NCBI GenBank assembly: GCA_030706405.1
Contig: JAUZOO010000006.1
Span: forward strand, 124,001-188,000
Direction of reading: 5' to 3'
Length of the DNA stretch: 64,000 nucleotides
From: Bacteroidota bacterium
Lineage (GTDB): Bacteria; Bacteroidota; Bacteroidia; Bacteroidales; JAAUTT01
The notes under the pieces are model-generated. The model was given only the letters and a program-made list of their open reading frames with translations. It made no database searches and had not been told where the DNA came from. A program made the translations under genes and the position numbers. Position 1 is the first letter of the stretch, and each line of letters opens with the position of its first letter. Of the stretch, positions 4,726 to 21,484 are shown piece by piece.

Positions 4726-7617
4726 TTACATTTGTTTTTGAGGATTGTGATTGTTCAGCCAGCTGACAATTGCTGCCGAAAGTTTATTCCGATCCTTGCC
4801 GGGTGTTTTTTCTCTTAATACGTCGAGCCATTGAAAGTATAAGTTTTCGAACTTTTTCATTTGCGAAACCCCTAACCATCTGAAATGAAAATGCAGGTAA
4901 GCCGGGGCTATGGAGCAAAATAAATTTTCGGCAAATAACCTAAAATCTGTATCTTGAAACCGCGCAGGCCAAGCAGGCATGATAATGGTTACCTGTAAAT
5001 TATACAAATTTTCGGTCTGTACAGTTCCATCGGGTAACTGCACCAATAATTCGAAGCGCGGAAACATACGTGTTTTATCTACATTCAACTTCTCAAGTTC
5101 GGCTCTAATCATTTGGAGTTCTTCGCGAAGTTCTGTATTTATAAGATTATCGGTACTTATCACTTCCCACTCATTCGTTTCTTTCGTTTTTTTAATTTGA
5201 AAGGAACCCGCACTGGAGTTTTTAATTTCTTTCGGTTGATCTGTTGGCCAGTTTCCTGTTTGAACCGCTTGTTTTATTTGGGAAAGGATGTTTTCCCTTT
5301 CTTCAAAGCTTGTCCACTGGTCATTTTGAAAGATAATTTCCCCTTTTCCTGAATAAAACCGAAAACCAAAAGAAGGTTGATTAAGTTCGGGCCGTAGCAA
5401 TAAATGCTCCAACACATGAAAGCCTTCCGACTCCATGCTGAGTTTTCGGAAGTAGGTAATTAATCTGTTTAACGCCTTAGTCGCGGCTAGTTTATCGGGA
5501 TGCCGGCTGATGACTTCCCATTTTTTTGTTACAGACGATTTGATAATAATAACAAAGCCTTCTTCGTTGTTGGGCGCAGGGCCTATCTTATAATTTTCGA
5601 TATTGAGGCCATATTTCAATATGTCAATTTTTTGGTTACGTAGAATATAAGCCTGGTTCTGATGAATGCCTCCTGCAATTAGTTTTCCAATTTCACTTAA
5701 CCCAATAATTTCGTCCGAACCTCCAACGATGTTAATGTCTTCATCATCCCACTTTGTTTTAAGTGGAATATCCTGATTTAAAGGGCCCAGATTATTGTCC
5801 TCGGATACCAAAGCAATCTTCCCATCGTCGAAAATCGATGAGAATCTCTGCCGTCGATCGTTTTGATTTACGTGCAGGTAAATGGCTGCCATTTTTTCAA
5901 AACCTGAGATGTCGTTAGTTTGTGCTAAATAATTAAAAGCTTTATTTTTTTTTTGATCAATTTTTGTAAGGTTGTCGAGAATGGAAGCTTTCCATTGCAG
6001 AATAAATGCCGCCCGCTCTTTATTGCTGCCCTGTACATAGAGGTTGAAATATTGTAAAACCGGCAGCCCTGCCAGTTTCCTGTTGAAACGGGCCAATAGA
6101 TGATCGAATATTTTGTTTTTTCGATCCATGTATTCTTCCAGAGTCTCCATGGATGTATTCAACGTATTGAGGTAGCCGTTTTCAGGGTTGGTAATAAATT
6201 CCTTCCAATGGCTTTTATTCTCGTTCTTTTTAACCGATGTGTAAGGTTTTAGCAGATCCTGTATGCCTGGGACATCGTATAGTGGTTGATAATAATAGGA
6301 GTGGCGGTTGTTTTTATTGGTGTTGGTTGAATATAATTGGCCGATATTTTCGAGCTGAGCCAGGTAATTAGCCAGTATCTGTTCGAAAAACAGTAGATAT
6401 GCCTTTAATTGGTGAGCTGCAGCTTTTCTTTGGTCCGACTCATGAGGTGAAAGCCCTTCGGTTCCGATACCATAAGTGATAGGAAAATTGTTCTGCAAGG
6501 AATAGTATTTGCCGGGATTGCGATACATTCCCCTTTTAATAGAGTCACTTGGTGATATAACAGCTTTTCTTTTCTGCGACCTAAGTTGTGCAGTTCTGTT
6601 GATGAGGTCGAAAAAAGTGTTTTCTTTTAATTGAAGTTCGTATTCGTCGGTGTACAGGTTAACATTTTTGAAAAACGAAGTGATATCTAGTAACGGGAAG
6701 TGGTTTTTATTCAACAGAAAAGGTTTGCCTTTACTGCATTCGTCGTCATCATTAATGCCAATGTTTTGAACAAAAACAACGCCCTCCACCTGCATAATGG
6801 CATTGGTAAGTTCTATGGGGTCAATCTCCGTTTCAATCGGTTTAAGTTCGCTGTCGGGCAAAAAGCCGTTTTTTAGTAATGGCCCACAGTATATTTCTTC
6901 AATCTTCATTCCGCTGCCAAGGAGTTCCTCTTCGGTGTAGAAATTGATTTTTGGATTTAAAATTGATTCCAGTTTGTTGTAGATGTTTACCAGTATCTCT
7001 TCCGGGGCAATGTTATATTGGATAATGATATCGGCATGCATATCAATTCTTTGTGGCTCTAAAACGGTAACGTCAATCATATCCTCGCCAAGGTTCCGTT
7101 TTTCGAGGTAACAGTGCGCCACTTTTTCTTTAAGTTGAATTTTAAGCTCTGGCTGCTGTAAAATTTTTTGAGCTACTTTACTATTTACCCTGATTAGAAT
7201 TTTGTACAAACCTTTAATATAATCCGAGCTGTGTTCGGAGGTTGTCGGTACAAGCATCACATTATTGAGTTCTTTCATTTCGTCCAGTATTACCTTTCTG
7301 AAATCGTTGATGGTAACCGGATTGCATGTAAGGATTTTTTCTTTACTGAAAAAACAGTGTTGCGTCCGGTTTATAATGCCGTTAATGTCAGTAAGGATGT
7401 CTTCGACCGGGAAATTGGTTTTATAAGCAAGGTCGGTCATGGCAAAGCACACCTGCTCAAGAATGGTAACGCCCGGATCGTGGAGGTTATAATCTGTCCA
7501 GGTATGTCCGGTGAGACGTTGCACTAAATCCATAGCCTGTGCCACTAAGAACTCGAAATCGGAGGGTGAATCTTTCGTTTGCTTTTTTTCAATAAACTGT
7601 GCTTCATTTATACTCAT
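4726..7617 (-). CDS. eCIS baseplate wedge protein (Afp11/Afp12, gp6/gpJ-like)
   Basis: A 963-residue cytoplasmic protein without signal peptide. Near residues 33-63 it carries the baseplate-type signature WTDYNLHDPGVTILEQ followed by AMTDLAYKT, which is typical of phage gpJ/T4 gp6-like baseplate wedge proteins and of the paired large baseplate genes of Bacteroidota injection systems. The centre (about 330-560) is charged and asparagine-rich, and the C-terminal quarter ends in FHFRWLG plus a helical tail. Such proteins join into the ring that anchors sheath and tube to the hub. It lies between the fibre-like gene and the tape-measure gene in the operon. Whether it matches Afp11 or Afp12 cannot be decided by eye, because the 1269-residue protein encoded upstream is the other large wedge candidate. 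Confidence 0.8.
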   Translation of the reverse strand: MSINEAQFIEKKQTKDSPSDFEFLVAQAMDLVQRLTGHTWTDYNLHDPGVTILEQVCFAMTDLAYKTNFPVEDILTDINGIINRTQHCFFSKEKILTCNPVTINDFRKVILDEMKELNNVMLVPTTSEHSSDYIKGLYKILIRVNSKVAQKILQQPELKIQLKEKVAHCYLEKRNLGEDMIDVTVLEPQRIDMHADIIIQYNIAPEEILVNIYNKLESILNPKINFYTEEELLGSGMKIEEIYCGPLLKNGFLPDSELKPIETEIDPIELTNAIMQVEGVVFVQNIGINDDDECSKGKPFLLNKNHFPLLDITSFFKNVNLYTDEYELQLKENTFFDLINRTAQLRSQKRKAVISPSDSIKRGMYRNPGKYYSLQNNFPITYGIGTEGLSPHESDQRKAAAHQLKAYLLFFEQILANYLAQLENIGQLYSTNTNKNNRHSYYYQPLYDVPGIQDLLKPYTSVKKNENKSHWKEFITNPENGYLNTLNTSMETLEEYMDRKNKIFDHLLARFNRKLAGLPVLQYFNLYVQGSNKERAAFILQWKASILDNLTKIDQKKNKAFNYLAQTNDISGFEKMAAIYLHVNQNDRRQRFSSIFDDGKIALVSEDNNLGPLNQDIPLKTKWDDEDINIVGGSDEIIGLSEIGKLIAGGIHQNQAYILRNQKIDILKYGLNIENYKIGPAPNNEEGFVIIIKSSVTKKWEVISRHPDKLAATKALNRLITYFRKLSMESEGFHVLEHLLLRPELNQPSFGFRFYSGKGEIIFQNDQWTSFEERENILSQIKQAVQTGNWPTDQPKEIKNSSAGSFQIKKTKETNEWEVISTDNLINTELREELQMIRAELEKLNVDKTRMFPRFELLVQLPDGTVQTENLYNLQVTIIMPAWPARFQDTDFRLFAENLFCSIAPAYLHFHFRWLGVSQMKKFENLYFQWLDVLREKTPGKDRNKLSAAIVSWLNNHNPQKQM

Positions 7618-8440: not shown

Positions 8441-11400
8441 TTAAATATTGTGTGTGATAATTAAACTAAAATATTCATCGTCGTCTTCGCTGTCGTCCGA
8501 TGTTTTTTTGACTGTCGGAATATTTTGGCCTACGGTATCCGAAATCAACAATTCTTCTCCGATAATAAAATCGCCAATGCCTAAAGGCTTGGCCTGTTCA
8601 AATACAGGCATATCAAGTAATGTTATAATATGATTAGCTGAAGGAATGAGTACTGATGTAGGAGAGGAGCTGGCAATGTAATCTAATTCGTTTACTGCGG
8701 TATCCGTAATATGTGCGTTTATTTCGTTGGTTAGTATGTTTTTTGAGCTGGAAAAATGAATAGCAGAAAATGCGGAAACATACTCCACATAAGGTCTTGT
8801 TTTGATAAACAATAGAATATCAGATCTGTAAATACGGTTACCGATTTTAAGATATTCTTTTTCGCCAAACAGCCATGGGGCAATATATCTGTTAATGTCG
8901 GTAGTGAGTTGACGAAGGTAAAAGCCCGGGTTGTTTGAGGCTTTGGCAGAAAGCAGTACCTTGCAAATAATCTTCACTTTTTCATACACCGGGTTACCTA
9001 CTTCAATGTTAATGAAGGGCGAAATAATCCCCGAAAGGAAAGTTTTTACTTTATAAAGCATCGCCAAACTAACCCGGGGAGGTTCGCTCAGAACGTTACT
9101 GTTTTTAATTTCTTTGGGTACCAGTACTATATGGAGGTTACTACCGGGCGCTATCATAAAGTTTTCGGCAGAGGTGTTAAAACATTTCACCATCAGTATT
9201 TGCGGAAATTCTTCAAGTACCACCTGTATGATGTCGCGAGCCTGAACAGGCCTTTGTTTATGTCTGAGGCGTTCGCTAATGCGCACGTAATATTTGTCGG
9301 ATTTTTCGGGCGGCTTCCCATTAAACGAAGGAAAGAGTTGCCACACCTGTTGTACTCCTTTTAAGGCATGCGCAAAACCTTTGATTGTACCGGCTGGTAA
9401 ACGTAAGTCCAACTCGTCTTCTGCTACCGGGCCCGATGCCCTTACTGCTGTAGCCCCGTTAGTGCATATTCCGGTAATGTGCGGACGTTCGCCATTATTA
9501 ACCAAAGACGCTCTAATCCAGAAAAGTCCGGGATCTACAATCGTATTACCTGTTGGAAGTTCTTTGGGCAATCGTAATTTTACAATGCCGGAATTGATAA
9601 AATTATTAGTAGAATCAAAAAGTAATTCTTTTCTTCGAAAATTAACCCAGTTATTATTCTCCAGATAGCTCCATTTAATGGCATTGGGTTCATAAATGGT
9701 GTGATGAAAGGAATTGTCATCCAATTGGAAAAGAAGGCTGAGTTCAGTTCCTGGAATAGCATTTTTTAAGCCAAGAAGAAGGTTGCTTTCATCGTCAAAG
9801 CGGGGCATGAAATAAATGTTCTTTTTATCGTTGCCCGGATAAATGTATTCGAAACCAAAAGGGTAGCAATGGAATAGTTCGACATTGCGTTCGGTGGCAA
9901 TACTACTTTCGTTAAAGTTTTCGGAATACTCCAAGGTGTAATCTACCGATATTGATTTAATTTCCGGAATAAGCGGCTGGTTGGGAAGAGGGGTTTTCTT
10001 ACCTTTCTTTTTTGCATTCTTCAGCACAGCTTCCGGAAATATTTGCGGGAATAACCGATGCCCAAATGCTTCGGGAGGATTGCTAAGTTCCAGGCGTATT
10101 CCACCTTCGCGTAAAGCCGTATCGCTAAATTCGGTGGCAAGTGTTGGCCGATTCAGGAATTCAATTTTATTGAAATCGATATCGCTAATGCTGGTACAGT
10201 TTTCCATGTAGTCGCCACCTTTTTGCATAGCAAATAATTCCTTTTGCTGTTGGCTCTCAGGTTTTGGGGTATAACTTCCTCTGTTGATGGCGCTGATGCC
10301 GACAGTAAACGAATTGTTAGCAAATGGAGCTTCGTAACCCGTATAATATGTGGTTAAGCCTCCTTTTTCGCGCGGAAGGTTTAACCATTCGAGGTGAAGA
10401 GAAAAATCTTTTGTGAAGCAATTAAACAAATTGGCATTTTTAATATCGAGGAATGATCCGAGATCGGGTTGAGGTCCAAATGCCTGAAATGGACTGGCCG
10501 GGCTCAGAACGCCAATGTTATTTTGTAGCTTAACAGATTTAAAGTCTTTTACATCTACTTTAATAGTAATGCGTTCAATAAGTGTATTCTTCAGAAAACT
10601 GAAAGGATGATGTTCGGCATAATTATTTAATCCAATATGCAAAAGTGGCAATGCCGATTCAATTGAAAGTTGGTGAATATGCTGTCGATAAATATCAAAC
10701 GCCGGGTCTGAGCCCTTGAGCTGCAGAATAATCTCTAAAACTTTGTCCTTAGGTTTGTCAGTTTCGTTTATTTCGAATTTTACCGAGTAACTTTTTACGG
10801 TTCCCCAACTTTCGCTCGATGTGTAAATAATATTAAAGGCATTGGACAGCAGACTGTAAATTGTGGTTTCATAGCCTTCGCCTGCCAGCTCCGAAAAGTT
10901 GTGTACATAGTTAACCAGAGATTTAAAACTTTCGGGCTTAAAATGTATTTTAAGGTTGATGGTTCGCTCACCTTCCGGCAGATAAAAAAGTGGTGAGCTG
11001 ATAATAAGTCCAATATTCGAATCATCCATGGTGCGCATGTTGCCGGCCAGTTCGTGTTGGTCTTCGCCAAATGCAGCCCACGATGTAAGTAAGGCAGGAT
11101 TTTTTTGATATTGACCGGGGACAAAAATTGGATGCGAAGCTTGATATATCTGAGTTTCTACGACATCGAACCGTTGCGGTTTATTCGTAACGATTTGTAT
11201 AAAGTGACTTATCAAGATAGTTTTAATATCGGCTATTTGTGCCGAAGTTACCAGTAGATCAGATTCTAAGGCGTAATGGACAGGCTCGTCTTTCCCCGGA
11301 ATTTGTGCCAGTAAGAGATCGGCGGTAGTCACCTGTAATCTTTTCTGAGTCTGGTTAGATTCAATAATCAGATGTACCTGATCGGGACAACCTTCGTAAG

Positions 11401-12250
11401 GTTTAAGCGCGAGCAGATCTTTGAAATAAAAATCGAGGTGCCGACGATTTATGCCGTTTATCTCTTTCTGCAAATACGTGTACAACTCCAAAAAAGCGAT
11501 GAAAAGTCCTGTTTGTGGCGAAAATTGTTGCTCGGTACATTTATTCCTCGCAACATAGCGCTGCGAAGTTTCTACCAGACGGTTAAATTTAGCATTTAGC
11601 CTGTTAAATAATTCAATAAGCGGGGGTAACGAATTGGTGATTCGTTCGTTGATTGTATTGCCTGTAAAAAAAGACTGTTTTGTTTTATCAACGGCTTTGC
11701 GAAGACCTATGGAAGGAAATTGAAGCTCATATTCGAATATATATCCAAACTCGTCAACGGCTTCATTATAAAACTGCAACAGGTCATTCATTTCAGTATC
11801 CGTATCGGGTACACTTGCCAGCACTTCTTCGATCCGATTGGAAGGGTATACCTGCAAAAACTGGTCGCTGAGCATCGAGAGCTGGGTTTTCAGTTTCATC
11901 AAAAAAGAAAAGAGCTTTTTCAGGCTTTCCATTCGCTCCTCACCTGCGATTCCGACTCTAACCGCATTTAAATATTGGTTAAAAAGGTTGATGTTGCCCA
12001 TAATATCGAAACGACTAACCATGAGAGTTAGCAGGTACGGGTCGCTAATGAAGAGATCTTCCCATGTTCCGCCAGGTTTGTTGTTTGAATTGTAATAATT
12101 AATCTGAGAAGCAAATTCTGTTATAAATTTGAGGAGATCGGGCAGCTGGCGAGAATCAATTTGAACGTATTCGGGAACTAACATTTCGAGCCATCTTTCG
12201 GATTGACTAAAACCTTGATTAGTTATCATGAATGCGTTTTTACTACTCAT
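8441..12250 (-). CDS. eCIS large baseplate protein (Afp11/Afp12-like, baseplate J family)
   Basis: A 1269-residue protein. The N-terminus (residues 1-70) contains GTWEDLFISDP, a signature of this large baseplate family in Bacteroidota systems. The C-terminal third is characteristic of Afp12/baseplate-J proteins: LRLPAGTIKGFAHALKGVQQVWQLFPSFNG, then YYVRISERLRHKQRPV and IIQVVLEEFPQILMVKCFN at roughly 960-1060. It is predicted to form the wedge that links hub, gp25-like protein and sheath. The extreme C-terminus is acidic (SDDSEDDDEYFS). It begins nine bases after the gp25-like gene. The family match is strong; the number in Afp nomenclature is inference. Confidence 0.85.
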   Translation of the reverse strand: MSSKNAFMITNQGFSQSERWLEMLVPEYVQIDSRQLPDLLKFITEFASQINYYNSNNKPGGTWEDLFISDPYLLTLMVSRFDIMGNINLFNQYLNAVRVGIAGEERMESLKKLFSFLMKLKTQLSMLSDQFLQVYPSNRIEEVLASVPDTDTEMNDLLQFYNEAVDEFGYIFEYELQFPSIGLRKAVDKTKQSFFTGNTINERITNSLPPLIELFNRLNAKFNRLVETSQRYVARNKCTEQQFSPQTGLFIAFLELYTYLQKEINGINRRHLDFYFKDLLALKPYEGCPDQVHLIIESNQTQKRLQVTTADLLLAQIPGKDEPVHYALESDLLVTSAQIADIKTILISHFIQIVTNKPQRFDVVETQIYQASHPIFVPGQYQKNPALLTSWAAFGEDQHELAGNMRTMDDSNIGLIISSPLFYLPEGERTINLKIHFKPESFKSLVNYVHNFSELAGEGYETTIYSLLSNAFNIIYTSSESWGTVKSYSVKFEINETDKPKDKVLEIILQLKGSDPAFDIYRQHIHQLSIESALPLLHIGLNNYAEHHPFSFLKNTLIERITIKVDVKDFKSVKLQNNIGVLSPASPFQAFGPQPDLGSFLDIKNANLFNCFTKDFSLHLEWLNLPREKGGLTTYYTGYEAPFANNSFTVGISAINRGSYTPKPESQQQKELFAMQKGGDYMENCTSISDIDFNKIEFLNRPTLATEFSDTALREGGIRLELSNPPEAFGHRLFPQIFPEAVLKNAKKKGKKTPLPNQPLIPEIKSISVDYTLEYSENFNESSIATERNVELFHCYPFGFEYIYPGNDKKNIYFMPRFDDESNLLLGLKNAIPGTELSLLFQLDDNSFHHTIYEPNAIKWSYLENNNWVNFRRKELLFDSTNNFINSGIVKLRLPKELPTGNTIVDPGLFWIRASLVNNGERPHITGICTNGATAVRASGPVAEDELDLRLPAGTIKGFAHALKGVQQVWQLFPSFNGKPPEKSDKYYVRISERLRHKQRPVQARDIIQVVLEEFPQILMVKCFNTSAENFMIAPGSNLHIVLVPKEIKNSNVLSEPPRVSLAMLYKVKTFLSGIISPFINIEVGNPVYEKVKIICKVLLSAKASNNPGFYLRQLTTDINRYIAPWLFGEKEYLKIGNRIYRSDILLFIKTRPYVEYVSAFSAIHFSSSKNILTNEINAHITDTAVNELDYIASSSPTSVLIPSANHIITLLDMPVFEQAKPLGIGDFIIGEELLISDTVGQNIPTVKKTSDDSEDDDEYFSLIITHNI

Positions 12251-12259
12251 TTTGTTTCT

Positions 12260-12667
12260 TTATAAATTGGTTCCTTCCAGCAGGTAAAACGGAAAAACAA
12301 TATTGTGCCGTGTGTTAGTGATTATAATTGTGTAATTAACCTGTATGTGCAACACCCCATCCAGGTCGTTACGGCTAACAATACTAGCATCGATAAAATT
12401 TACCCGCGGTTCGAAGTTTAGAAGCGCCTGATAAATAATGTGGTTTAATCCGTTAATGAAGGTGGAATCTTGCCGTTCGAAGATAAATTGGCGCAGATTA
12501 CAGCCATAATCCGGGCGCATGAGTCGTTCTCCTGGTTCAGTGCTGAGTAATATATGGATGCTCTCGGCAATGTCTTCCTCGCCTGATGCCATACGAACGT
12601 CTTTTCCTGTTCTGTCGAAAGTGGGAGGGAACCCCCACCCTGTACCCAGAAAAGATTTTAATTCCAT
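12260..12667 (-). CDS. eCIS gp25-like baseplate wedge (Afp9-like, GPW/gp25)
   Basis: A 135-residue protein matching the GPW/gp25 lysozyme-like baseplate family. It has the short N-terminal GWGFPPTF segment, DIAESIHILLSTEPGERLMRPDYG (residues about 31-54), and a following helix-strand unit ending in an aliphatic beta hairpin. The EPGERLMRPDYGC pattern is the family signature. In phage T4 and Afp, gp25/Afp9 sits at the top of the baseplate and nucleates the first sheath ring. Spacing of four bases to the PAAR gene and nine to the large baseplate gene shows strict co-transcription. Length is normal for the family. Confidence 0.95.
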   Translation of the reverse strand: MELKSFLGTGWGFPPTFDRTGKDVRMASGEEDIAESIHILLSTEPGERLMRPDYGCNLRQFIFERQDSTFINGLNHIIYQALLNFEPRVNFIDASIVSRNDLDGVLHIQVNYTIIITNTRHNIVFPFYLLEGTNL

Positions 12668-12671
12668 GCAC

Positions 12672-12974
12672 TTATCCTCCTATTAGTACTGTTGGACATC
12701 CGAGAACAATGCTGCCTCCATGTGCGGTACTATCGCCCATACGAGCCGCAGGCTTCCCGCCAATAAGTACGGTAGCCGATCCTTTTACAATTGTATCCGG
12801 CGGGCCAACGCATACAAGCATATCGCCTACTACTGCGGCGGGCATCTTACCTATCAGTACCGTTGGTACGCCCGGGCCGGTAACTGGTCCTCCCACATGA
12901 GGTATAGGCGGTAAACCCGGTGTTTGCATTGGGCAAGTGTGCATATCTGTTAATCGTGCTGCAGGCGCTCCCAT
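12672..12974 (-). CDS. PAAR-domain spike tip protein (Afp10-like)
   Basis: A 100-residue protein made entirely of a PAAR domain. It opens MGAPAARLTDMHTCP and has repeated VLIGGKPAARMGD and PTVLIG strands, with the histidine and cysteine residues (DMHTCP, GDSTAHGG) that bind a metal in the sharp tip. PAAR proteins cap the trimeric spike and are the first component to breach a target membrane. There is no C-terminal extension, so this copy carries no fused toxin domain. It lies three bases after the VgrG-like gene, whose product it is expected to cap. Confidence 0.95.
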   Translation of the reverse strand: MGAPAARLTDMHTCPMQTPGLPPIPHVGGPVTGPGVPTVLIGKMPAAVVGDMLVCVGPPDTIVKGSATVLIGGKPAARMGDSTAHGGSIVLGCPTVLIGG

Positions 12975-12977
12975 AAT

Positions 12978-14774
12978 CTAATTTATCATTACAATGCCAC
13001 CTTTTACAGTAGTTTGCCCTGATGCAGAGATTTCGGCTGTGGCATTTCCTTTTGCAGTAAATCCTACTTGGGCCGTGTTGTTTACATTCATTCCTGATAC
13101 AGCCACATCCTGTTTGGCGGTGAGGTTTAACTTGCCGGTTGCATCGAGTGTGATATTCCCAGTGGCTTTAAGCGTGATATCTTTGTTGCTTTGTAGGTTG
13201 ATGCCGCTAGAAGTCATTTTTAACGAATTGCTGTTTTGGTCAACAATCTCAATCGATTTGGCTTCGTCGCTGAGGGTTATTGAGTTTCCTCCGGGGGTTT
13301 CTATTTTGAGAATTTTCTTTTCGTCGTCAAAACTTATTTTGAGTTTACTTTTGGTAATAATTGATTTTATGTAGTTGTTGTTGTCGGCTGGTTTTGCAGC
13401 TGCCGGCTTCGCGCTGCTGTAAAGCGACCCGAGTATAACCGGAAATCGTGGGTCGCTTTCGAGAAACCCAACCACCACTTCATCTCCCACTTCTGGAAAA
13501 AAAACTGTACCAGCCCCATTGGTAGCATAGAAGGTGGCCATGCGAGCCCACATACCATCCTGGTTTTCGGCACTCGACGGAAGACTGACCTGTATCCGAA
13601 AATGAGCCTCCGGGTCGTCAAATATTTTTTTCACCGTAGCCACTTGTAGACCTCTGATAGCAGGCAGTTGCCCAACACCTTCGGCGTATGAAAATCCGGG
13701 TTTTTCGTATGTAAACTTTGCTTCGAGCCCAAATTTTACTGTACTAAGCCAGGTTCCATGCTCAATGGTATGCGTAACTGCCGATACATAAGCATTCCCG
13801 TTAAATCGGTCGCCAACACCCTCGAGCTGGATTATACTGTTGGTTTTGGCACTGGCATTACCGTTAAAGCTTACTTTTCCTTTAATTGCAGCCAATCTCA
13901 TTTTCAGGAGGCTCCCATCTGCCCACGATTTCAAATCGTCTTGTGTAAGCGGGGTATTACTTGTCAGATTTAGTTGCGATTGCGAAAGCTTGCCCGATAG
14001 CGCTTTTGCCGCCAGATTGCCTTGCGTGTTCAGCGTTGGTTCGCTTGCGTTGGCTTGCAGTAAGGCTTGGTTTTTAATGTTCCACCCTGATGCTTGTAAG
14101 GCTGTTGGCTGTTTTTCGGCATTAAGCTCGGCATTAAACGAGAGAATGGATTCTCCGAACGCAACGCGCAACACCGCGCTCCCGTCCACCTTAGGTTTTC
14201 CGATAATTATTTTGTCTGCATCAAACGAGATGACGAATCCGTAGAAATCGGCTCGTGATAAGATAAAATCCCAATCTGTGGCCTGTTTCTGAAAAATTAC
14301 TTCATAGGTTTGAGAAGTAGCGTCAATAGTGGCACTCAAGTTGTAGTTACCAACAATACTTTTTATAATATCGCTGTCGCTTTTGTTGGTAAATTGCGCT
14401 TCTTTTTTGTTGAAGCTCATCGTTACTGCTTTATGCTTACACGTAACCGCCAGACAGAATGCTTGGTCTGCCTCGATGCGAATAGCCTGTTTTACCACCA
14501 CTCCGTTAAATATTGGTTCCTCGGCATCTGATCCGTAACCGGCTGTTATCTCCACGGTATTGCCCGGGATGAAATCATTACTCTCGCTAATGGGAAAATC
14601 GCCTGTCTCGACAGTTCCGTCCACCAATACAATTTCGGCATATGAAATTTTGTTTATTTCATGGGTAATGTTTATCGACACTACCGGATAATAATCTTTT
14701 ATAGGAGCTCCGTTTACTTTTACCGTAAATCGAAGCGTAGGGTCTGTTATGTCTGAAGGTGATTTAACGGGCAT
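12978..14774 (-). CDS. VgrG-like hub/spike protein (Afp8-like)
   Basis: A 598-residue protein. Residues about 10-330 form the gp27-like hub (phage late-control D/VgrG fold, e.g. EITAGYGSDAEEPIFNGVV and WDFILSRADFYGFVISFD). Residues about 375-455 are the gp5 OB-fold with EVGDEVVVGFLESDPRFPVILGSLYS, the VgrG signature. The remaining 110 residues form a repetitive strand-rich needle with alternating polar and hydrophobic residues (GNITLDATGKLNLTAKQDV). The trimer plugs the inner tube and carries the PAAR tip. It is encoded three bases after the LysM adaptor gene. The long needle resembles type VI secretion VgrG, but no type VI membrane-complex genes are present. Confidence 0.93.
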   Translation of the reverse strand: MPVKSPSDITDPTLRFTVKVNGAPIKDYYPVVSINITHEINKISYAEIVLVDGTVETGDFPISESNDFIPGNTVEITAGYGSDAEEPIFNGVVVKQAIRIEADQAFCLAVTCKHKAVTMSFNKKEAQFTNKSDSDIIKSIVGNYNLSATIDATSQTYEVIFQKQATDWDFILSRADFYGFVISFDADKIIIGKPKVDGSAVLRVAFGESILSFNAELNAEKQPTALQASGWNIKNQALLQANASEPTLNTQGNLAAKALSGKLSQSQLNLTSNTPLTQDDLKSWADGSLLKMRLAAIKGKVSFNGNASAKTNSIIQLEGVGDRFNGNAYVSAVTHTIEHGTWLSTVKFGLEAKFTYEKPGFSYAEGVGQLPAIRGLQVATVKKIFDDPEAHFRIQVSLPSSAENQDGMWARMATFYATNGAGTVFFPEVGDEVVVGFLESDPRFPVILGSLYSSAKPAAAKPADNNNYIKSIITKSKLKISFDDEKKILKIETPGGNSITLSDEAKSIEIVDQNSNSLKMTSSGINLQSNKDITLKATGNITLDATGKLNLTAKQDVAVSGMNVNNTAQVGFTAKGNATAEISASGQTTVKGGIVMIN

Positions 14775-14777
14775 TCG

Positions 14778-15443
14778 TTATTTTTTTATAGGTGGAAAGT
14801 AGATCTGATCGCCAGGTTTAATGGCATGTACGCTTTTAAGTTGGTTTATCCTGGCCACTTCCATGTAATATGCGCTGTCACCGTATATGCGGTAAGTCAT
14901 CAGAGGCAGGGTGTCGCCTGCTTTTACCGTTCGCATGTGCGTAAGGTCGGGCGATTGCTTCTGCGCTTCTTTGGCTTTGGTCTTAAAATCGATGGTTTGA
15001 GACAGGTTAAGTTCGATTGTTGCACGTAACGCACTGCCGTCTTCTTTAAAAAGAGAATAATTAACTTTAAAAGAGGTGCATACGCAAATGAAAGACAGGC
15101 TACCCCACATTACTTTGAGAAAATTGGGTCTGTGATTGGGGCCATGAAAAGAACATGCAACATCTTTTACCTTTTGGATGTATCCATCTACATTGGTAAT
15201 GCCTTGAGGTAAGGGAACTACACCTGTACCATCGGCGATTAATTTGAGATTCATGTCGCTTCCGGGCATTCCTTTGAAAATCAGAGTTGTATCATTTTCT
15301 CCGATCACCTCCGATTTGTGGTACTCTACTTTGTAGTTGCGTGAATAGGTGTCGGGATTAAACATTGCCACAACCGAATTGCCTGTAGACGTCGTACAGT
15401 TTGGATCGGTAAAAGCTTCAATTTTAAGTTTAACTAAGGCCAT
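14778..15443 (-). CDS. LysM-containing tube/baseplate adaptor (Afp7-like)
   Basis: A 221-residue protein. Its N-terminal 150 residues belong to the contractile-injection tube-initiator family (VVAMFNPDTYSRNYKVEY). Its C-terminus is a LysM domain (VKAGDTLPLMTYRIYGD ... IKPGDQIYFPP) at about 168-218. In Afp/PVC systems the equivalent protein joins the VgrG-like hub to the first tube ring. Here LysM is probably structural rather than a cell-wall targeting signal, because the protein has no signal peptide. It starts one base after the DUF5908 gene and ends three bases before the spike gene. Confidence 0.92.
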   Translation of the reverse strand: MALVKLKIEAFTDPNCTTSTGNSVVAMFNPDTYSRNYKVEYHKSEVIGENDTTLIFKGMPGSDMNLKLIADGTGVVPLPQGITNVDGYIQKVKDVACSFHGPNHRPNFLKVMWGSLSFICVCTSFKVNYSLFKEDGSALRATIELNLSQTIDFKTKAKEAQKQSPDLTHMRTVKAGDTLPLMTYRIYGDSAYYMEVARINQLKSVHAIKPGDQIYFPPIKK

Positions 15444-15655: not shown

Positions 15656-16108
15656 TCAGTAGACCCGGGTAAAGTAAGCGTACGAAAGTTCAAGGGTTTC
15701 TAAAACAATGGCATTGTCTTGTGCTTTTAAGTCGGAAATTTTAAGGCTTACCGGGTAAGCATTTTTGAACGACCAAGAAGCTAAAGGCGCGGATGTGTCG
15801 TCTATTAGGTTTACAATCACGTTTTTAGGTTTGATGGTAAAATTTTCAACAGCATCGCGGGCCCAGGTGATGAGTTTCGAATTAAGGATCATTCCTCTCT
15901 TTAGTACTAGGTTTTCATACTTTGGAGGATTAGGTAAACGGTGCTCAAAACGATTTTCTCCACCTTCCTTAATTGATATGGAACCTAGTTTTATGCTGAT
16001 GCCACTAACTTCCTGGAAACTGCCTTCGTAGGAACCATTTATCCCAACCACATTTACCTTAAAGGAAAATGCAGCTGGGTAAAATGGAGGATCTTTGGGT
16101 ATGTCCAT
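15656..16108 (-). CDS. eCIS inner-tube protein, initiator type (Afp5-like)
   Basis: A 150-residue T4 gp19-like tube protein. It has AAFSFKVNV then GSFQEVSGISIKLGS, the exposed loop GGENRFEHRLPNPPKYENLVLKRG, and the terminal strand NAIVLETLELSYAYFTRV. These blocks align throughout with the neighbouring tube protein (GLSSETQVIEYRGG, KFSNVTLKKGMF, ESLELAHEGL), so the two are paralogues. In Afp and PVC a second tube paralogue forms the ring that contacts the hub. Its position next to the DUF5908 and LysM genes favours that role. Cytoplasmic, with no signal peptide. Confidence 0.92.
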   Translation of the reverse strand: MDIPKDPPFYPAAFSFKVNVVGINGSYEGSFQEVSGISIKLGSISIKEGGENRFEHRLPNPPKYENLVLKRGMILNSKLITWARDAVENFTIKPKNVIVNLIDDTSAPLASWSFKNAYPVSLKISDLKAQDNAIVLETLELSYAYFTRVY

Positions 16109-16123
16109 TCCGGGTTCAGATTA

Positions 16124-16576
16124 CTATACTATTTTTAACCCTTCGTGAGCCAATTCTAAACTTTCTACGGCGATTTCGTTTCCGTCCGATTTCATGTCGG
16201 TAACGGTAATCTTCACTGGAAAGGCATTGGTGAGTTTCCAACTCATGGCTACACCCTGCGATTCATCGAGCAAACTTATAACGATCGATGATCTCTTATA
16301 AGTATTCATCTTGATGAGGTTGTATTTATCCCATAGGTTTTTATCGCCTTTAAACATGCCTTTTTTAAGGGTTACATTCGAGAATTTCTGAATGCCTGGC
16401 ATTTTAACTGTCGAATAAACAGGGCTGCTACCTCCTCGGTACTCAATAACTTGCGTTTCGGAAGATAATCCTGATACTTCCTGAAAAATAAATTCTGCAT
16501 CATCCCATTTTACCTGAAAGGAGAATTTTACAAGTGGCCATGTGGCCGCTGATTGTGCTGATCCATCTTCTGCCAT
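16124..16576 (-). CDS. eCIS main inner-tube protein (Afp1-like, T4 gp19 family)
   Basis: A 150-residue protein of the phage T4 gp19-like tube family. Diagnostic segments are VKFSFQVKWDDAEFIFQEVSGLS (residues about 16-40), VTLKKGMFKGD, and the C-terminal beta strand AVESLELAHEGLKIV. Hexameric rings stack to make the lumen through which cargo is delivered. It directly follows the sheath gene (44-base gap), as expected for the abundant tube subunit. It shares the family fold with the protein encoded immediately downstream, which is probably the adaptor ring. Confidence 0.93.
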   Translation of the reverse strand: MAEDGSAQSAATWPLVKFSFQVKWDDAEFIFQEVSGLSSETQVIEYRGGSSPVYSTVKMPGIQKFSNVTLKKGMFKGDKNLWDKYNLIKMNTYKRSSIVISLLDESQGVAMSWKLTNAFPVKITVTDMKSDGNEIAVESLELAHEGLKIV

Positions 16577-16620: not shown

Positions 16621-18129
16621 TTACGATTGTTGCATTTGTTGTTGGAACGTGATTACGATAAACTCTGCCGGGCGAACAATAGCTACTTTCACGGTAATAA
16701 GCATTTTGCCGTCGAGGATATCGGTTGGAGTCATAGTAGTACCTAATCCTATCTGTACGTCAAATGCCTGTTCAGGTACCGATCCGGCCAATGCTCCCTG
16801 TTTCCAAAGATTGGTAAGGAAGTTCATTATCATACATTTCACTGTAATCCACGTGTTAGCGTCGTTAGGTTCGAATACATAAGCACGGGTAGCCAGTTTT
16901 AGCGATTGTTCAATCATAATCAGGGTTCTTCGTACATTGATGTAACGCCAGTCCTGACTGTTACCATCGAGCGTGCGACCGCCCCATACCAATGTTCCTA
17001 TTCCGGGGAAAGAACGAATGACGTTGATAGATTTTCCGGCAAGAACATCGACGTTAAGATCTTCCTGCTGCTCGTGCGAGATATTTACGGTTGGAGCATT
17101 TACCATGCTTACTGAAACGTTAGCCGGAGATTTCCAAACACCACGACTATTGTCTACTGCCGTATATAAACCAGCCATAGCCGGGGCTGCCGGAAGTTCG
17201 TTGAGCTTGGCGCGTACTTCTTCGAGTATGTTGTTGTAAGTTGGGCTGGTGGCCTTAAGTGCTTGATGATAATTTAATTTATCGTTATCGTCTGGAGTGG
17301 TTTTTGCTTTGAAATTTTTTACTACTCCAAGCGCAGCTACTTCAGTGGCTGGTAATATTGTAGATAAGTCTACAGTGTCGTCGAGACTTTCGAAGGTAAC
17401 CTCACTGGGTTGTACTATTGATGTTTTTAACCATGGATAATAAGCTGCTCCATATTTCAGGTCGTTCATTCCTATATTGTCCCTAAAGGCACCAACAACA
17501 TTGGATGTTTCGTCTGATGGCAATTGTTTCACCAAATCGAATATTCCAAAACGGCTTTGCATTTTAGCACAATGAGCAAGAATTTTTGTATAGATGCTGC
17601 TGTAACACTCTTCGCCTAAGGCAATAGCATCGGGTACAAGCACCAATGTGGGTTCAAACTCTTTTTTAAGAATCTCGAACGGATCGGACTTAGTTGCAGA
17701 TCCAATAAAGTCCTCCGCTTTTATTTCCAAGCCGTCTTTTTTATCCTTGTATGTATCAACTGATAAGATATAACAAGGACCACCACCATTGGCATAAAAC
17801 AGGCGGATACTATTGAAAAGGTAAAACGTGTGGTTTTTAGTTATTTCTACAACCATCTGTTTACCATCTAATGCAAACGTTTCTTGTTTTGCGGCCGGGT
17901 CTGCGTCTGCCAGGGTAAATTTGGCGTTAAATCCTGCACCGAAGCGTTCTACATACTCGGCAAAAGAAGTAATACGGGTAGGTTTCTCAATAAGCGATTT
18001 ACCGTTCCATTCAGCTTTTTCGGTATATCCAATAAATACCGGAACTGCTGTTTCTACTGCAACGGCGGAACTGGGAAAGGCGTTTTTTTCTTCAATGTAA
18101 ACGCCGGGAGTCATTAATTTTGTTGGCAT
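16621..18129 (-). CDS. eCIS contractile sheath protein (Afp2/3-like)
   Basis: A 502-residue sheath protein. The N-terminus LMTPGVYIEEKNAFPSSAV and AVPVFIGYTEKA is typical, with GGGPCYILSV near residue 115. In the conserved C-terminal sheath domain RSFPGIGTLVWGGRTLDG, YINVRRTLIMIEQSL, FEPND and VAIVRPAEFIVITFQQQMQ are visible. The terminal strand after VRP provides the handshake to neighbouring subunits that drives contraction. Only one sheath gene is present, as in other compact Bacteroidota systems, whereas Afp and PVC encode three. It lies between an unrecognised operon protein and the main tube gene. Confidence 0.97.
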   Translation of the reverse strand: MPTKLMTPGVYIEEKNAFPSSAVAVETAVPVFIGYTEKAEWNGKSLIEKPTRITSFAEYVERFGAGFNAKFTLADADPAAKQETFALDGKQMVVEITKNHTFYLFNSIRLFYANGGGPCYILSVDTYKDKKDGLEIKAEDFIGSATKSDPFEILKKEFEPTLVLVPDAIALGEECYSSIYTKILAHCAKMQSRFGIFDLVKQLPSDETSNVVGAFRDNIGMNDLKYGAAYYPWLKTSIVQPSEVTFESLDDTVDLSTILPATEVAALGVVKNFKAKTTPDDNDKLNYHQALKATSPTYNNILEEVRAKLNELPAAPAMAGLYTAVDNSRGVWKSPANVSVSMVNAPTVNISHEQQEDLNVDVLAGKSINVIRSFPGIGTLVWGGRTLDGNSQDWRYINVRRTLIMIEQSLKLATRAYVFEPNDANTWITVKCMIMNFLTNLWKQGALAGSVPEQAFDVQIGLGTTMTPTDILDGKMLITVKVAIVRPAEFIVITFQQQMQQS

Positions 18130-18148: not shown

Positions 18149-18982
18149 TTAATAAATGAAAATATCTGAATAAATTTTGTCATTCCTGATGTTGCTAATA
18201 GTTGAAATATTTGCAGGGTTTGGAGTAGGCAACAAGCGCATCACTACACGATAAGCCGGAGATCCTTTTTCGTAGTTTTCCACCAGTTTAAAATGTTTCA
18301 ACGGCGATTGACTGAGGCTGATAGGGATATTAGAGGTAAAATATAAAGCTTCTTGTTTATTGGGAAGCTGTATGTTGTCAGGACCAATAAAGATTTCCTG
18401 TTCCCCGAGTATGGCCGGTTGTTGAAGATTTTTGAGGTACTCGCTTACCAATACATAACGCCAATATGTCTGCTTTTCTTTGAAAATAAGACTGTATTCG
18501 GTCAGTAACTCTTTGTTGAGGTGTATATCTATGATTGCAAATGGTTTAATGGAAAATGTTTCACCAAAGCTCTTGCAAGAATAAATATCCGCTTTCGAAA
18601 CAAACTCATCTAGGTGCAGCAGGCTTCCCAAAGACGGTTTCGTTCGGTTGTCGTTAATGTTATGCAAATAATATATCGAATCGACAAGGTTATCCATGCC
18701 GCCATCAGTGTAGTTAAAGAAGTTATTGTCGGTAAGTGTCAGATAATAACGAAGTGTGATAGAGCTATCGAGGATTTCAACTCTCTCGCGACGTTGTCCG
18801 TTGCTATATGCTTCGTAGAGTAAAACAAATCCGTCTTTAAACGGTTTAAATATTAAACCATTGTTAAGCATCACATCTTCGGAGCTTTTGTCAGGGTGTA
18901 TAGAAAAGCATTCCAACTTTAGGTTTGAAAAGTACCGGTGACGGTAAATTACGTTAGTTAGTATATCGTATTCAACCTGCAC
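18149..18982 (-). CDS. eCIS operon protein of unknown function
   Basis: A 277-residue protein starting at a GTG nine bases after the DUF4255 stop. No signal peptide, membrane segment or enzyme motif is visible. The composition is strand-rich and aromatic (ILTNVIYRHRYFSNLKLECFSIHPD; FKPFKDGFVLLYEAY). Its place between the tube-terminator and sheath genes suggests a structural or assembly role, such as a cap or sheath-associated factor. I know no characterised function for it; similar unannotated genes occupy this slot in Bacteroidota eCIS operons, as far as I can recall. Confidence 0.8.
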   Translation of the reverse strand: MQVEYDILTNVIYRHRYFSNLKLECFSIHPDKSSEDVMLNNGLIFKPFKDGFVLLYEAYSNGQRRERVEILDSSITLRYYLTLTDNNFFNYTDGGMDNLVDSIYYLHNINDNRTKPSLGSLLHLDEFVSKADIYSCKSFGETFSIKPFAIIDIHLNKELLTEYSLIFKEKQTYWRYVLVSEYLKNLQQPAILGEQEIFIGPDNIQLPNKQEALYFTSNIPISLSQSPLKHFKLVENYEKGSPAYRVVMRLLPTPNPANISTISNIRNDKIYSDIFIY

Positions 18983-18991
18983 GTTAGTCGT

Positions 18992-19567
18992 TTAATTTAG
19001 GTTTGGATAGTTGTCGTTTTCCATTTTTGATATTGCGGGCCTGAACTCACGAATAACAGACTCGTCGAAGCTGAGCATGCGCATCTTGTATAAAACTGAA
19101 GGCATATATTTGGCCCCAAGTGTTGACCAGATATTGCTTAACATGTCGGGGTTTACGTCGGTTATTTCGAAAGTTAACTTTTCAATTTTCGGATCAAGAC
19201 CGGGGGTGTTACTTTGGTTAAACACAGTTTTGTGCTGAAAGTAGGCAATAATAAACGATAGAAAACGTAAAGCCTCCGGATAATTGCCACTGCTAAAGTA
19301 AGCCGAAAAAAGCACATAGATGTTAAGACGCAACGGTGGAGCCTGGTTGCCAAATGTTGTAGATAAGCTTTTCCCGTTTCCTTTTTGAGCCGTTTCTTTT
19401 TCGATATTAACCAACGTTATAATAATTTTATTTTCTTCCTGTATAGCTATACTTCCATCCTGATTCACCAAACCCGATAAAACGATTTTCTCTTCGTTGA
19501 TTTTTAGTTTATTCCTAAAATACTCATTCATTTCTTCGGTTAAACACGATAAGGCTTCGTAGATCAT
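18992..19567 (-). CDS. eCIS tube terminator/cap (DUF4255, Pvc16/Afp16-like)
   Basis: A 191-residue protein of the DUF4255 (Pvc16 N-terminal) family. It begins MIYEALSCLTEEMNEYF, has KIIITLVNIEKE, and contains PPLRLNIYVLFSAYF followed by YPEALRFLSFIIAYFQ and LTFEITDV, the diagnostic run at about 80-150. In Afp/PVC this protein binds the distal end of tube and sheath and stops elongation. It is the first gene of the minus-strand operon. A perfect hairpin precedes the start by 24 bases. Confidence 0.93.
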   Translation of the reverse strand: MIYEALSCLTEEMNEYFRNKLKINEEKIVLSGLVNQDGSIAIQEENKIIITLVNIEKETAQKGNGKSLSTTFGNQAPPLRLNIYVLFSAYFSSGNYPEALRFLSFIIAYFQHKTVFNQSNTPGLDPKIEKLTFEITDVNPDMLSNIWSTLGAKYMPSVLYKMRMLSFDESVIREFRPAISKMENDNYPNLN

Positions 19568-19590
19568 ACCTTGTATTATAAAAAGTTTAT

Positions 19591-19606
19591 CTTTCGCTAA
19601 CGAAAG
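19591..19606 (-). promoter_or_regulatory. Perfect 6-bp palindrome in the eCIS operon leader
   Basis: CTTTCG and CGAAAG flank a four-base loop, 24 bases upstream of the first eCIS start codon. It may be an operator or a 5'-leader hairpin. No poly-T run follows in either direction, so it is not a typical terminator. The rest of the 228-bp divergent region to 19795 is A/T-rich. Confidence 0.35.
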
Positions 19607-19737
19607 TGTTTTGTTAAATTAATCAATAGGAAGAACGTCTGCACGATATAATTGTCAATGTAAAAAGTGTATATTTAATTGCATCTAAGTATTAACAAAC
19701 TTAATCTTTTTTATTAAAAAAATGGGTTTGAGAAAAA

Positions 19738-19745
19738 TATTTTTG
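19738..19745 (+). promoter_or_regulatory. Possible Bacteroidota -7 element before the GH18-like gene
   Basis: TATTTTTG fits the TAnnTTTG -7 consensus about 50 bases before the ATG. No TTTG is found at the expected -33 spacing, so the assignment is weak. Confidence 0.3.
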
Positions 19746-19795
19746 TATAAAATAAACATGTCTGCTTTTTTTTGTTTTATTTGATTGTTCTATTC

Positions 19796-21484
19796 ATGAT
19801 GAATTATTTCAGGACAATGCGTTTTGCTTTTTATCTTTTGTTAGGTATTTGCTTGTTTTCTATCGATGGGTTTTCTAAAATTGGTTTACCGGAAAAGAAA
19901 CACCCAGTCGTCAATTCTATTAATTACCTTATCGATCGAACGGTTGAACAGAAAGTTGAGCCAAAAGAAAAGCAGAAGAAGATCGAGGTAGTACGTAAAA
20001 TTTTACAACATCCCGAAGGAATTGCCGACTCTATAAAGCAAAACGATACAATTCTTAAAAGATTTACATTATGCTTGAGGAAGCGATGCGAAGTGTTTGG
20101 TTATTTGCCGTATTGGATGAATAATAATTGTCACGATCTTAATCTTAGCTTATTCACAACCTTGGCTTTTTATGGTTACGAACTTGACGAAAAGACCGGT
20201 GGTTATAAAACACTAAATGGCTGGGATACCATAACTGTGATAGATGCGGCCCGCAAAGCGAAATGTAAAATCTCTTTGTGTGTATATAGCAAAAATAAAG
20301 ACAAATTAAAAATATTTCTTAAAAGCAAGAATTCGCAAAAGACCCTGGCTTCCAAAATATGTACTCAACTTGAAAAACGAAAGGCCGACGGTGTAAATAT
20401 TATGTTTGATGATATTGACTCAACCTGTCGTCAATCGTTTACTAAATTTGTCCAATCATTTTCGCAAAGTTTAAAATCGGTTAATGATAATTATCAGATA
20501 ACAATTACCGTTCCTGTGATAGACCAAAGTCAGGTCTACGACATTCAACGACTCGACTCATGTACCGATCGCTTTGTTATCGATTTTACAAAACGAAAGG
20601 ATTACGGAGCCATTGCGCCATTGAGAGGCGTTGATTATAGTTTGGAAGCAGGCATTGCACGTTATCTTAGCTCTGGAGTTTCTTCTTCAAAATTTATAGC
20701 ATGCGTGCCTTATTACGGAGCTCTTTGGGATTTTCAAACAAAAGAATTTATTAAGTATGTTAAGTATAACCGGGTTATGAGCGATTATGCTTCTGATTAC
20801 GGATCAATTTCCGACAAAAATGGAGTTCGGATTGATGCGTTTGAAGAACTGGATTCGTCACAATTATGGTACGACGATGCTCGGACCCTTTCTGAAAAAT
20901 ATAATCTTATACTGCAGAATAAATTGGGCGGTGTCGGCATTTGGGCGTTGGGTTACGATAATAATCAGTCTGAATTGTGTAATGCATTAATAGATAATCT
21001 GATTTATGTTGACTCAACAAACGTAACGGTAATCTCAACAAAACTATTTACGATATGGGACGGCGTTAAAAAAGAACTAGCGTTGTATAAATTTCTATTT
21101 CAACATCCTTGCCAGTTTAATGATGAAATGCGCCGCGAAATGAAGTTGGATAATTACATTGGTTATATAACTTTAACGATGGTGATATTGCTAATGCTGG
21201 TGACAGTATTCTATATTGCAAGAATTCGGGTGCTCGATGATGATTGGGTATATCGAAAAATAGTTTTGCGTTTACTCATTTTTATGGTTGTCATCACTAT
21301 GATTTCAGTGTTGATGTACTGTTTTCTAAGCCCCGATATAGAATCTTTTGGCATTAGTGATCCTGACAAATGCGAAACCAGTTTCGGTGTCATTTTGCAA
21401 ATACTTGGGATTGGATTTATCATTGGTTTACTTGCCATGAAGTTATTGGTAGTTCCTCTGACTAAGCCGAAGGATACTCCTTAG
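19796..21484 (+). CDS. Membrane-anchored GH18-like protein with altered catalytic motif
   Basis: A 562-residue protein from the ATG at 19796 (another ATG follows at 19799). It has an N-terminal hydrophobic segment that may be a signal peptide or anchor (FAFYLLLGICLFSI). A GH18-like barrel spans about residues 95-410, with VFGYLPYWM, ISLCVYS, FIACVPYYGALWDF and GVGIWALGYDN. Three predicted transmembrane helices follow near 454-476, 488-510 and 530-552. The catalytic strand, normally DGxxIDxE-like, reads DGVNIMFDD at 198-206: the second Asp is Met203 and the Glu position is Asp205. Chitinase activity is therefore doubtful; glycan or peptidoglycan binding is possible. It is transcribed divergently from the eCIS operon 228 bp away, so a role in release, anchoring or cell-envelope passage is conceivable but unproven. 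Confidence 0.75.
   Translation: MMNYFRTMRFAFYLLLGICLFSIDGFSKIGLPEKKHPVVNSINYLIDRTVEQKVEPKEKQKKIEVVRKILQHPEGIADSIKQNDTILKRFTLCLRKRCEVFGYLPYWMNNNCHDLNLSLFTTLAFYGYELDEKTGGYKTLNGWDTITVIDAARKAKCKISLCVYSKNKDKLKIFLKSKNSQKTLASKICTQLEKRKADGVNIMFDDIDSTCRQSFTKFVQSFSQSLKSVNDNYQITITVPVIDQSQVYDIQRLDSCTDRFVIDFTKRKDYGAIAPLRGVDYSLEAGIARYLSSGVSSSKFIACVPYYGALWDFQTKEFIKYVKYNRVMSDYASDYGSISDKNGVRIDAFEELDSSQLWYDDARTLSEKYNLILQNKLGGVGIWALGYDNNQSELCNALIDNLIYVDSTNVTVISTKLFTIWDGVKKELALYKFLFQHPCQFNDEMRREMKLDNYIGYITLTMVILLMLVTVFYIARIRVLDDDWVYRKIVLRLLIFMVVITMISVLMYCFLSPDIESFGISDPDKCETSFGVILQILGIGFIIGLLAMKLLVVPLTKPKDTP

Follow-up and report, generated by a model that had tools for sequence, protein, structure and literature searches.

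How a CIS makes contact with the cell envelope when the T6SS membrane complex is absent is an open question, and the described cases include the following two. In Streptomyces coelicolor, the available sections of the CisA report (PMC12237407) present a CIS-linked membrane protein with an extracytoplasmic domain of ligand-binding-like type that is needed for contraction; CisA encompasses a long cytoplasmic N-terminus, one helix and a solute-binding-like domain. In the thylakoid CIS of Anabaena, the accessible part of the description (PMC8894136) assigns the positioning of the system in its membrane to a transmembrane (TM) helix of Cis13. Three subtype Ib CIS (AlgoCIS, MAC and T6SSiv) have core parts in common with the operon analyzed here; no GH18 protein or membrane adaptor is mentioned in the available AlgoCIS text. 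The nearest prior report is that of Geller et al. (PMC8213781), which in its available part lists EAT3, an eCIS-associated toxin of Dickeya labelled 'Chitinase?', together with EAT10, predicted to be a peptidoglycan hydrolase; EAT3 is a cargo and not a membrane part. Across the open-licence literature, no GH18 protein or similar membrane protein was found reported as a CIS partner; a description may exist beyond it.

The window analyzed here is a stretch of 64,000 nucleotides from a member of the Bacteroidales (GCA_030706405.1, contig JAUZOO010000006.1, positions 124,001 to 188,000). It carries a gene coding for a GH18 barrel followed by three C-terminal helices, hereafter GH18-3TM, adjacent to a minus-strand gene cluster (Table 1). 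The joint presence of cap, sheath, tube, spike, baseplate and tape measure matches identifies this cluster as a genuine eCIS operon, in which the assignments of cap and cap adaptor derive from matches to chains of AlgoCIS 7adz and of 9r9n (SalCis16b). Two eCIS_core proteins are encoded past the ATPase gene, beyond the start of the window (contig C18; L043:14093-15310 and L043:12712-13860); one of them contains an EndoU nuclease domain and is a probable cargo.

Table 1. Features of the GH18-3TM gene and of the divergent eCIS operon, in window coordinates.
Feature	Position	Strand	Evidence
GH18-3TM gene, 562 aa (stop 21482-21484)	19796..21484	+	ORF and translation, Pfam
GH18 barrel, aa 102-388	20099..20959	+	Pfam E 2.2e-21; AlphaFold model
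Degenerate catalytic strand DGVNIMFD, aa 198-205	20387..20410	+	Translation, family alignment
TM helix 1, aa 451-469	21146..21202	+	Hydropathy
TM helix 2, aa 489-507	21260..21316	+	Hydropathy
TM helix 3, aa 530-548	21383..21439	+	Hydropathy
Codon of conserved C-terminal proline P562	21479..21481	+	Family comparison
Divergent gap, 228 bp, cap gene to GH18-3TM gene	19568..19795	.	ORF positions
CIS cap protein (Pvc16_N / DUF4255; AlgoCIS cap-like)	18992..19567	-	Pfam, AlgoCIS 7adz match
Cap adaptor (probable), by profile match to All3326, SalCis16b and AlgoCIS cap adaptor 7adz_1A	18149..18982	-	
Sheath	16621..18129	-	Pfam
Tube protein 1	16124..16576	-	Pfam
Tube protein 2	15656..16108	-	Pfam
CIS_tube protein with LysM-like end	14778..15443	-	Pfam
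VgrG-like spike	12978..14774	-	Pfam
PAAR tip	12672..12974	-	
gp25 baseplate protein	12260..12667	-	
Cis11 baseplate protein (AlgoCIS 7aeb_G, All3317, Pvc11-like)	8441..12250	-	Profile match
Short fibre-like protein, 266 aa, Cis13-like (All3316) N-terminus, no TM helix	7635..8435	-	
Cis12 baseplate protein (All3315/Alg12-like)	4726..7617	-	Profile match
Tape measure protein (CIS_TMP)	1075..4710	-	
AAA ATPase, extends past window start (460 aa in L043)	1..1111	-	

The divergent arrangement and its 228-bp spacing stand as originally predicted. The start of the GH18-3TM gene, which had been set at 19568, does not, as that position is the start of the gap; the open frame covers 19772-21484 and its likely ATG lies at 19796. 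The accompanying suggestion that the divergent pair is under shared control found no support. A Bacteroidetes-type promoter pattern presented three instances in the window (3.7 expected) and none in the gap, where no sigma-70-like site was detected either. The gap does hold one terminator-like stem (19591-19606), at chance level.

The protein encoded by this gene likely carries an N-terminal export signal and ends in KPKDTP. An AlphaFold2 model built on 25 family members (mean pLDDT 71.7) adopts the GH18 fold, with a best Z of 34.2 over 302 aligned residues and an rmsd of 2.1, so that superposition, Pfam and hydropathy concur in confirming the predicted GH18-like barrel with three C-terminal helices; the latter are helical in the model, at low confidence (pLDDT blocks of 45-67). 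The reported degeneration of the catalytic strand was also verified. Relative to the DxxDxDxE pattern of GH18 enzymes, the first Asp (D1) is kept, D4 is replaced by N, D6 by M and the catalytic Glu (E8) by D, and the beta-6 MxYD motif of most relatives (MGYDF) is missing, with the aligned columns gapped except for DF. The protein has diverged strongly, at 22-29% identity to its relatives, and retains the aromatic residues of the probable sugar cleft. Its structural matches include insect chitinases and animal chi-lectins (CHI3L1 and YKL-39, Z about 34), and the GH18 fold is common to the model and to CHI3L1, YKL-39 and Ym2 at Z 33-34. YKL-39 is non-catalytic according to the title of its structure entry, and the other matched chi-lectins are non-catalytic as well; they are animal proteins and are not known to have a membrane anchor or a CIS. 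The model of a Fulvivirga member matched active and inactive GH18 proteins alike, with Z up to 37.7, and the fold is therefore uninformative on activity.

To place this architecture in a wider context, 569 related GH18 loci were confirmed, and the best 80 of them were examined over up to 10 kb on each side. A three-helix tail was present in 29 of these best 80 loci. The remaining 51, tail-less Bacteroidota proteins of 396-1406 aa that are presumably secreted, are the closest sequence relatives of the barrel and differ from it in having no C-terminal helices. At least two eCIS core families, a linkage rule chosen after seeing the data, were found within 10 kb in 17 of the 29 three-helix loci and in none of the 51 tail-less ones. 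These best 80 loci overlap with other sets, since L105-L109 and L161 coincide with contigs that were hits in the order sample described below, five of them being profile seeds, and L149 and L158 stem from one genome. In 13 of the 29 three-helix loci, Pvc16_N is encoded on the same strand by the first or second ORF that follows, with examples of this same-strand layout in Fulvivirga, Sporocytophaga, Reichenbachiella, a Salinivirgaceae MAG and Flavobacteriales; the divergent layout of the window is the less usual one and recurs in L137. Of the 29, 12 have fewer than two eCIS families in reach, several of them on short contigs. No adjacent eCIS was found within the stretch examined in L114, L122, L129, L153, L161 and L168. 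L161 belongs to genome G030, whose eCIS is on another contig, and in L176 a cap gene lies 8 kb from the GH18-3TM gene. In genome G709, a distance of 270 kb separates the eCIS from the GH18-3TM gene (L187:8740-10509), which adjoins a gene for a two-helix protein, TM2, at 10516.

Two genome samples provided a second view of this association, using cut-offs that were likewise chosen after seeing the data: to count as full-length, a match had to extend to model position 560 or beyond out of 608 in the order sample, and to 520 or beyond out of 598 in the class sample. Among 395 genomes of the class, all 11 full-length matches fell within the 50 genomes carrying Pvc16_N; leaving out the window genome, the figures are 10/10 against 49/394 (p 4e-10, which ignores relatedness). 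Among 393 genomes of the order, seven matches including the window reached the model end and six of them were in the 28 Pvc16_N genomes, that is, 5/6 against 27/392 without the window genome (p 6e-6, again ignoring relatedness). The seventh hit comes from a genome that is 77% complete (G087), on a 4.5-kb contig that ends after the two-helix gene preceding Pvc16_N elsewhere. The class matches lie less than 1 kb from Pvc16_N in eight of 11 cases, window included, the exceptions being G709, G560 and G432. Tail-less GH18 proteins occurred in Pvc16_N genomes at the baseline rate (10/78, a control that counts G504 and G611, which are below the cut-off yet carry helices), and a link of GH18 proteins in general to eCIS was accordingly rejected.

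Most eCIS do without GH18-3TM, as 22 of the 28 Pvc16_N genomes of the order yielded no full-length match. Two of these (G085 and G188) hold an eroded copy, and searches of the remaining 20 with two profiles detected no full-length member. The only controls for hidden copies were G085 and G188, which are seeds of one profile and which the other profile recovered only in part; in these 20 genomes, copies eroded to the same degree but of a different kind could therefore have escaped notice. In G039, a stretch of 99 aa matched the helix part, in a frame overlapping an ORF for a PP2C-like protein; this match is probably compositional. The linkage of the GH18-3TM architecture to eCIS loci is firm: homologs of the same architecture lie preferentially beside eCIS genes, both among the best 80 of 569 loci and in the class sample. 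It had been anticipated that finding homologs mostly away from such loci would count against the original interpretation, and this is not what was observed.

The association extends to the phylogeny of the injection system. A sheath tree of 50 rows included 28 systems positive for GH18-3TM (24 in the same locus and four elsewhere in the genome) and 22 negatives, taken from the order genomes with a sheath of at least 400 aa, except G366, and from five of the 37 remaining class genomes with Pvc16_N. All 28 positives, the window system among them, fell in a single clade of 31 rows with support 98/98, and 19 of the 22 negatives fell outside it, so that among the sampled systems GH18-3TM is restricted to one CIS clade. 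The three negatives inside the clade are G039, which is fragmented, and G335 and G125, which seem to be systems of this clade without GH18-3TM.

Gene content follows a similar division. In the extended positive loci, no ORF separates Cis12 from the tape measure in eight of nine cases, L229 being the exception, and a short protein of about 250 aa is encoded between Cis11 and Cis12 in seven of nine. Positive loci have a long tape measure of 1068-2279 aa, represented in L229 by a pair of ORFs (1011 and 850 aa). Negative loci present an ORF of 926-1462 aa in the fibre slot in eight of ten cases, with none in L238, and a tape measure of 387-505 aa (771 aa in L236), which was not found in L234. The negative locus L236 also holds a relative of the short protein, and G335, negative yet within the clade, has gene slots of the positive type. 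Positions 4-40 of the short protein profile match Cis13 (All3316) of the thylakoid CIS in Anabaena, with E 4.8e-6. No TM helix was detected in any of the seven versions checked (that of the window and six relatives), and a separate anchor provided in trans would fit a Cis13-like protein devoid of such a helix. The arrangement would thus differ from that of Anabaena, where the helix is on the fibre-like Cis13 itself, in that the candidate anchor is the GH18 protein. A profile comparison between the 266-aa short protein and the GH18 protein returned nothing. The slot for a large fibre is mostly empty across the clade. Because the middle part of the 266-aa protein is fibre-like, the view of the positive clade as devoid of a fibre was abandoned.

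To determine which features of the window protein are general, a family set of 44 GH18-3TM proteins was compiled, window included (42 distinct, L170 and L186 holding an identical protein). The catalytic Glu is kept in 40 of the 44 and D6 in 31. E8 has become D in the window protein, P in both L217 and L219, and Q in L191, and the D4 position holds N in 16 members and D in only five. The designation of the protein as a pseudo-GH18 therefore holds for the window protein but fails as a trait of the whole family, whose ancestral member was enzyme-like. Catalytic losses appear to have taken place independently at least twice and perhaps three times, a count that is uncertain given the long branches of the GH18 tree, for which every second of the 51 tail-less GH18 proteins was taken and L108 and L158 were omitted.

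The C-terminal end is the other salient feature of the family. A terminal proline is present in 43 of the 44 proteins (41 of the 42 distinct ones), L195 ending in K; it is found in 55 of the 1947 remaining ORFs called mechanically in these loci and in two of the 51 tail-less GH18 proteins. In an alignment of 25 members it is the sole invariant column past D388, and the only invariant residue of the helix part, which is less well conserved than the barrel. The same 25 members, window included, have invariant W107, Y307, W311, W358 and W383, and three of these (W107, W311 and W383) are also invariant across a wider set of 16. By analogy with GH18 structures in general, the invariant aromatics of the barrel probably line the sugar cleft. 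The conservation of the barrel and the retention of Glu in most members indicate that a sugar-related task, catalytic in most of them, is likely under selection. The charges of the loops place the C-terminal tail in the cytoplasm in all 41 proteins scored out of 44, a topology predicted from the positive-inside rule. Two members inside eCIS loci (L217:5112-7142 and L219:6251-8290) consist of two tandem, eroded half-GH18 units with no Pfam GH18 match, yet they preserve the three helices, the terminal proline and the position in the locus. Together with the residue losses, this erosion indicates that helices, tail end and genomic place outlast the catalytic residues. The terminal proline is also carried by L114, L122, L129, L153 and L168, which have no eCIS in the stretch examined, and the Aquimarina members reach 946-948 aa (L145:9686-12532 and L160:9686-12526), with two Pfam GH18 stretches in L145.

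In one subclade (L103, L104, L102, L025 and L026, from genomes G073, G176, G087, G020 and G030), GH18-3TM forms part of a longer Pvc16_N-linked module. Assembled as a composite, since not every part is present on each contig, the module encompasses a lipoprotein-like protein of about 180 aa, GH18-3TM, a PP2C-like protein with a C-terminal helix, a TPR lipoprotein and the two-helix protein. In G030 the PP2C-like protein also bears a LysM domain, and a SpoIIE/HATPase protein joins the module. The composition of this module hints at regulation. Searches of the window genome, run with no positive control there, returned no match to TM2 or to the PP2C-like protein.

A barrel, membrane helices and a fixed tail, inherited with one CIS clade and often encoded beside cap genes, fit the profile of a membrane adaptor. 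We tentatively propose, with a little less than even confidence, that GH18-3TM is the membrane adaptor of one Bacteroidota CIS clade, holding or licensing the particle at the inner membrane. The export signal would send the barrel to the periplasm, where it would probably hold a GlcNAc-containing glycan of the producer's own wall, such as peptidoglycan. The three helices would span the inner membrane, and the short basic cytoplasmic tail with its fixed proline may dock on a part of the CIS, be it the cap, the cap adaptor or the baseplate; once docked, the tail would hold or license the particle at the envelope. The barrel would descend from a GH18 hydrolase, a few lineages, that of the window included, having lost the catalytic residues and kept architecture and linkage. 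GH18-3TM may in this manner act as CisA is thought to, with another fold and another topology: the single helix and cytoplasmic N-terminus of CisA are replaced here by a predicted export signal, a GH18 barrel followed by three helices, and a very short tail predicted to lie inside, and no membership in the CisA family is claimed. A stronger version, in which the adaptor constitutes a cell-wall checkpoint carried in trans, its periplasmic barrel reading the producer's own wall and its proline tail docking on and licensing the particle, is a possibility we regard as doubtful. We consider it equally doubtful that, on the checkpoint reading, these systems make up a distinct Bacteroidota class of membrane-tethered CIS with a barrel catalytically dead in some lineages.

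The retention of E8 and D6 in most of the family also bears on a different explanation, in which GH18-3TM of the relatives, together with the holin-sized TM2, cuts the producer's peptidoglycan for the release or firing of particles. In most relatives catalysis may indeed be the job, given that 40 of 44 keep the Glu and that the barrel is better conserved in sequence than the helices. TM2 sits between the GH18 and Pvc16_N genes in several loci, and the spore GH18 proteins YaaH/SleL (4s3k) and YdhD (3cz8) are the third- and fourth-ranked of the seven PDB entries that match the window protein in sequence. These are soluble spore enzymes with catalytic residues. Endolysins do not as a rule carry a membrane tether made of three helices and a fixed tail. 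Holin and lysin genes are found together in R-tailocin clusters, according to the available part of PMC10598620. The window copy has lost E8, D6 and MxYD and thus departs from the intact peptidoglycan hydrolase of a holin-endolysin cassette, TM2 found no match in its genome in searches that had no positive control there, and the barrels of L217 and L219 are retained in spite of their erosion. We therefore regard wall opening as rather unlikely, and just as unlikely the corresponding view of the window copy as a degenerate descendant or a regulator.

Less probable still is a role as a periplasmic glycan sensor that, as a muropeptide checkpoint, would regulate the expression or firing of the eCIS with no part in tethering. 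In its favour, CisA has itself been proposed as a sensor in the available sections of PMC12237407, and the subclade module includes a PP2C-like membrane protein, a TPR lipoprotein and, in one genome, a SpoIIE/HATPase protein. Against it, the PP2C-like protein and TM2 found no counterpart in the window genome (positive controls were again lacking there), and the predicted cytoplasmic tail is of only about 15 residues. A role in immunity, shielding the producing cell against the particles or cargo that it makes itself, appears very improbable: the gene does adjoin the eCIS, codes for a membrane protein and has a probable eCIS_core/EndoU cargo encoded nearby past the ATPase, but its inheritance goes along with that of one clade's structural genes, and an EndoU nuclease would presumably call for cytoplasmic immunity. 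Equally improbable is a bystander decaying beside the eCIS genes, or a cargo or effector, since the divergent orientation and low identity to relatives are outweighed by the linkage and clade restriction in the Bacteroidota and by an intact 562-aa frame ending in the conserved proline; an export signal and three helices would moreover be ill-suited to a cargo. Of the three roles originally offered, anchor, immunity and release, the data thus best agree with the anchor, which would operate as outlined above; immunity fares poorly, and release is weak for the window protein in view of its lost catalytic residues and of the unmatched TM2, for which the window genome offered no positive control.

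Overall, these results suggest that GH18-3TM is an undescribed component of a known machine, firmly linked to it and with a proposed role at the membrane. For the question of how a CIS devoid of a T6SS membrane complex contacts the envelope, GH18-3TM provides a concrete gene and a concrete tail to probe, as it is inherited along with a single clade and combines a domain of glycan type, predicted to be periplasmic, with a fixed cytoplasmic end. If the membrane adaptor reading is true, one branch of the systems known as extracellular may operate, or be retained, in a cell-attached state.
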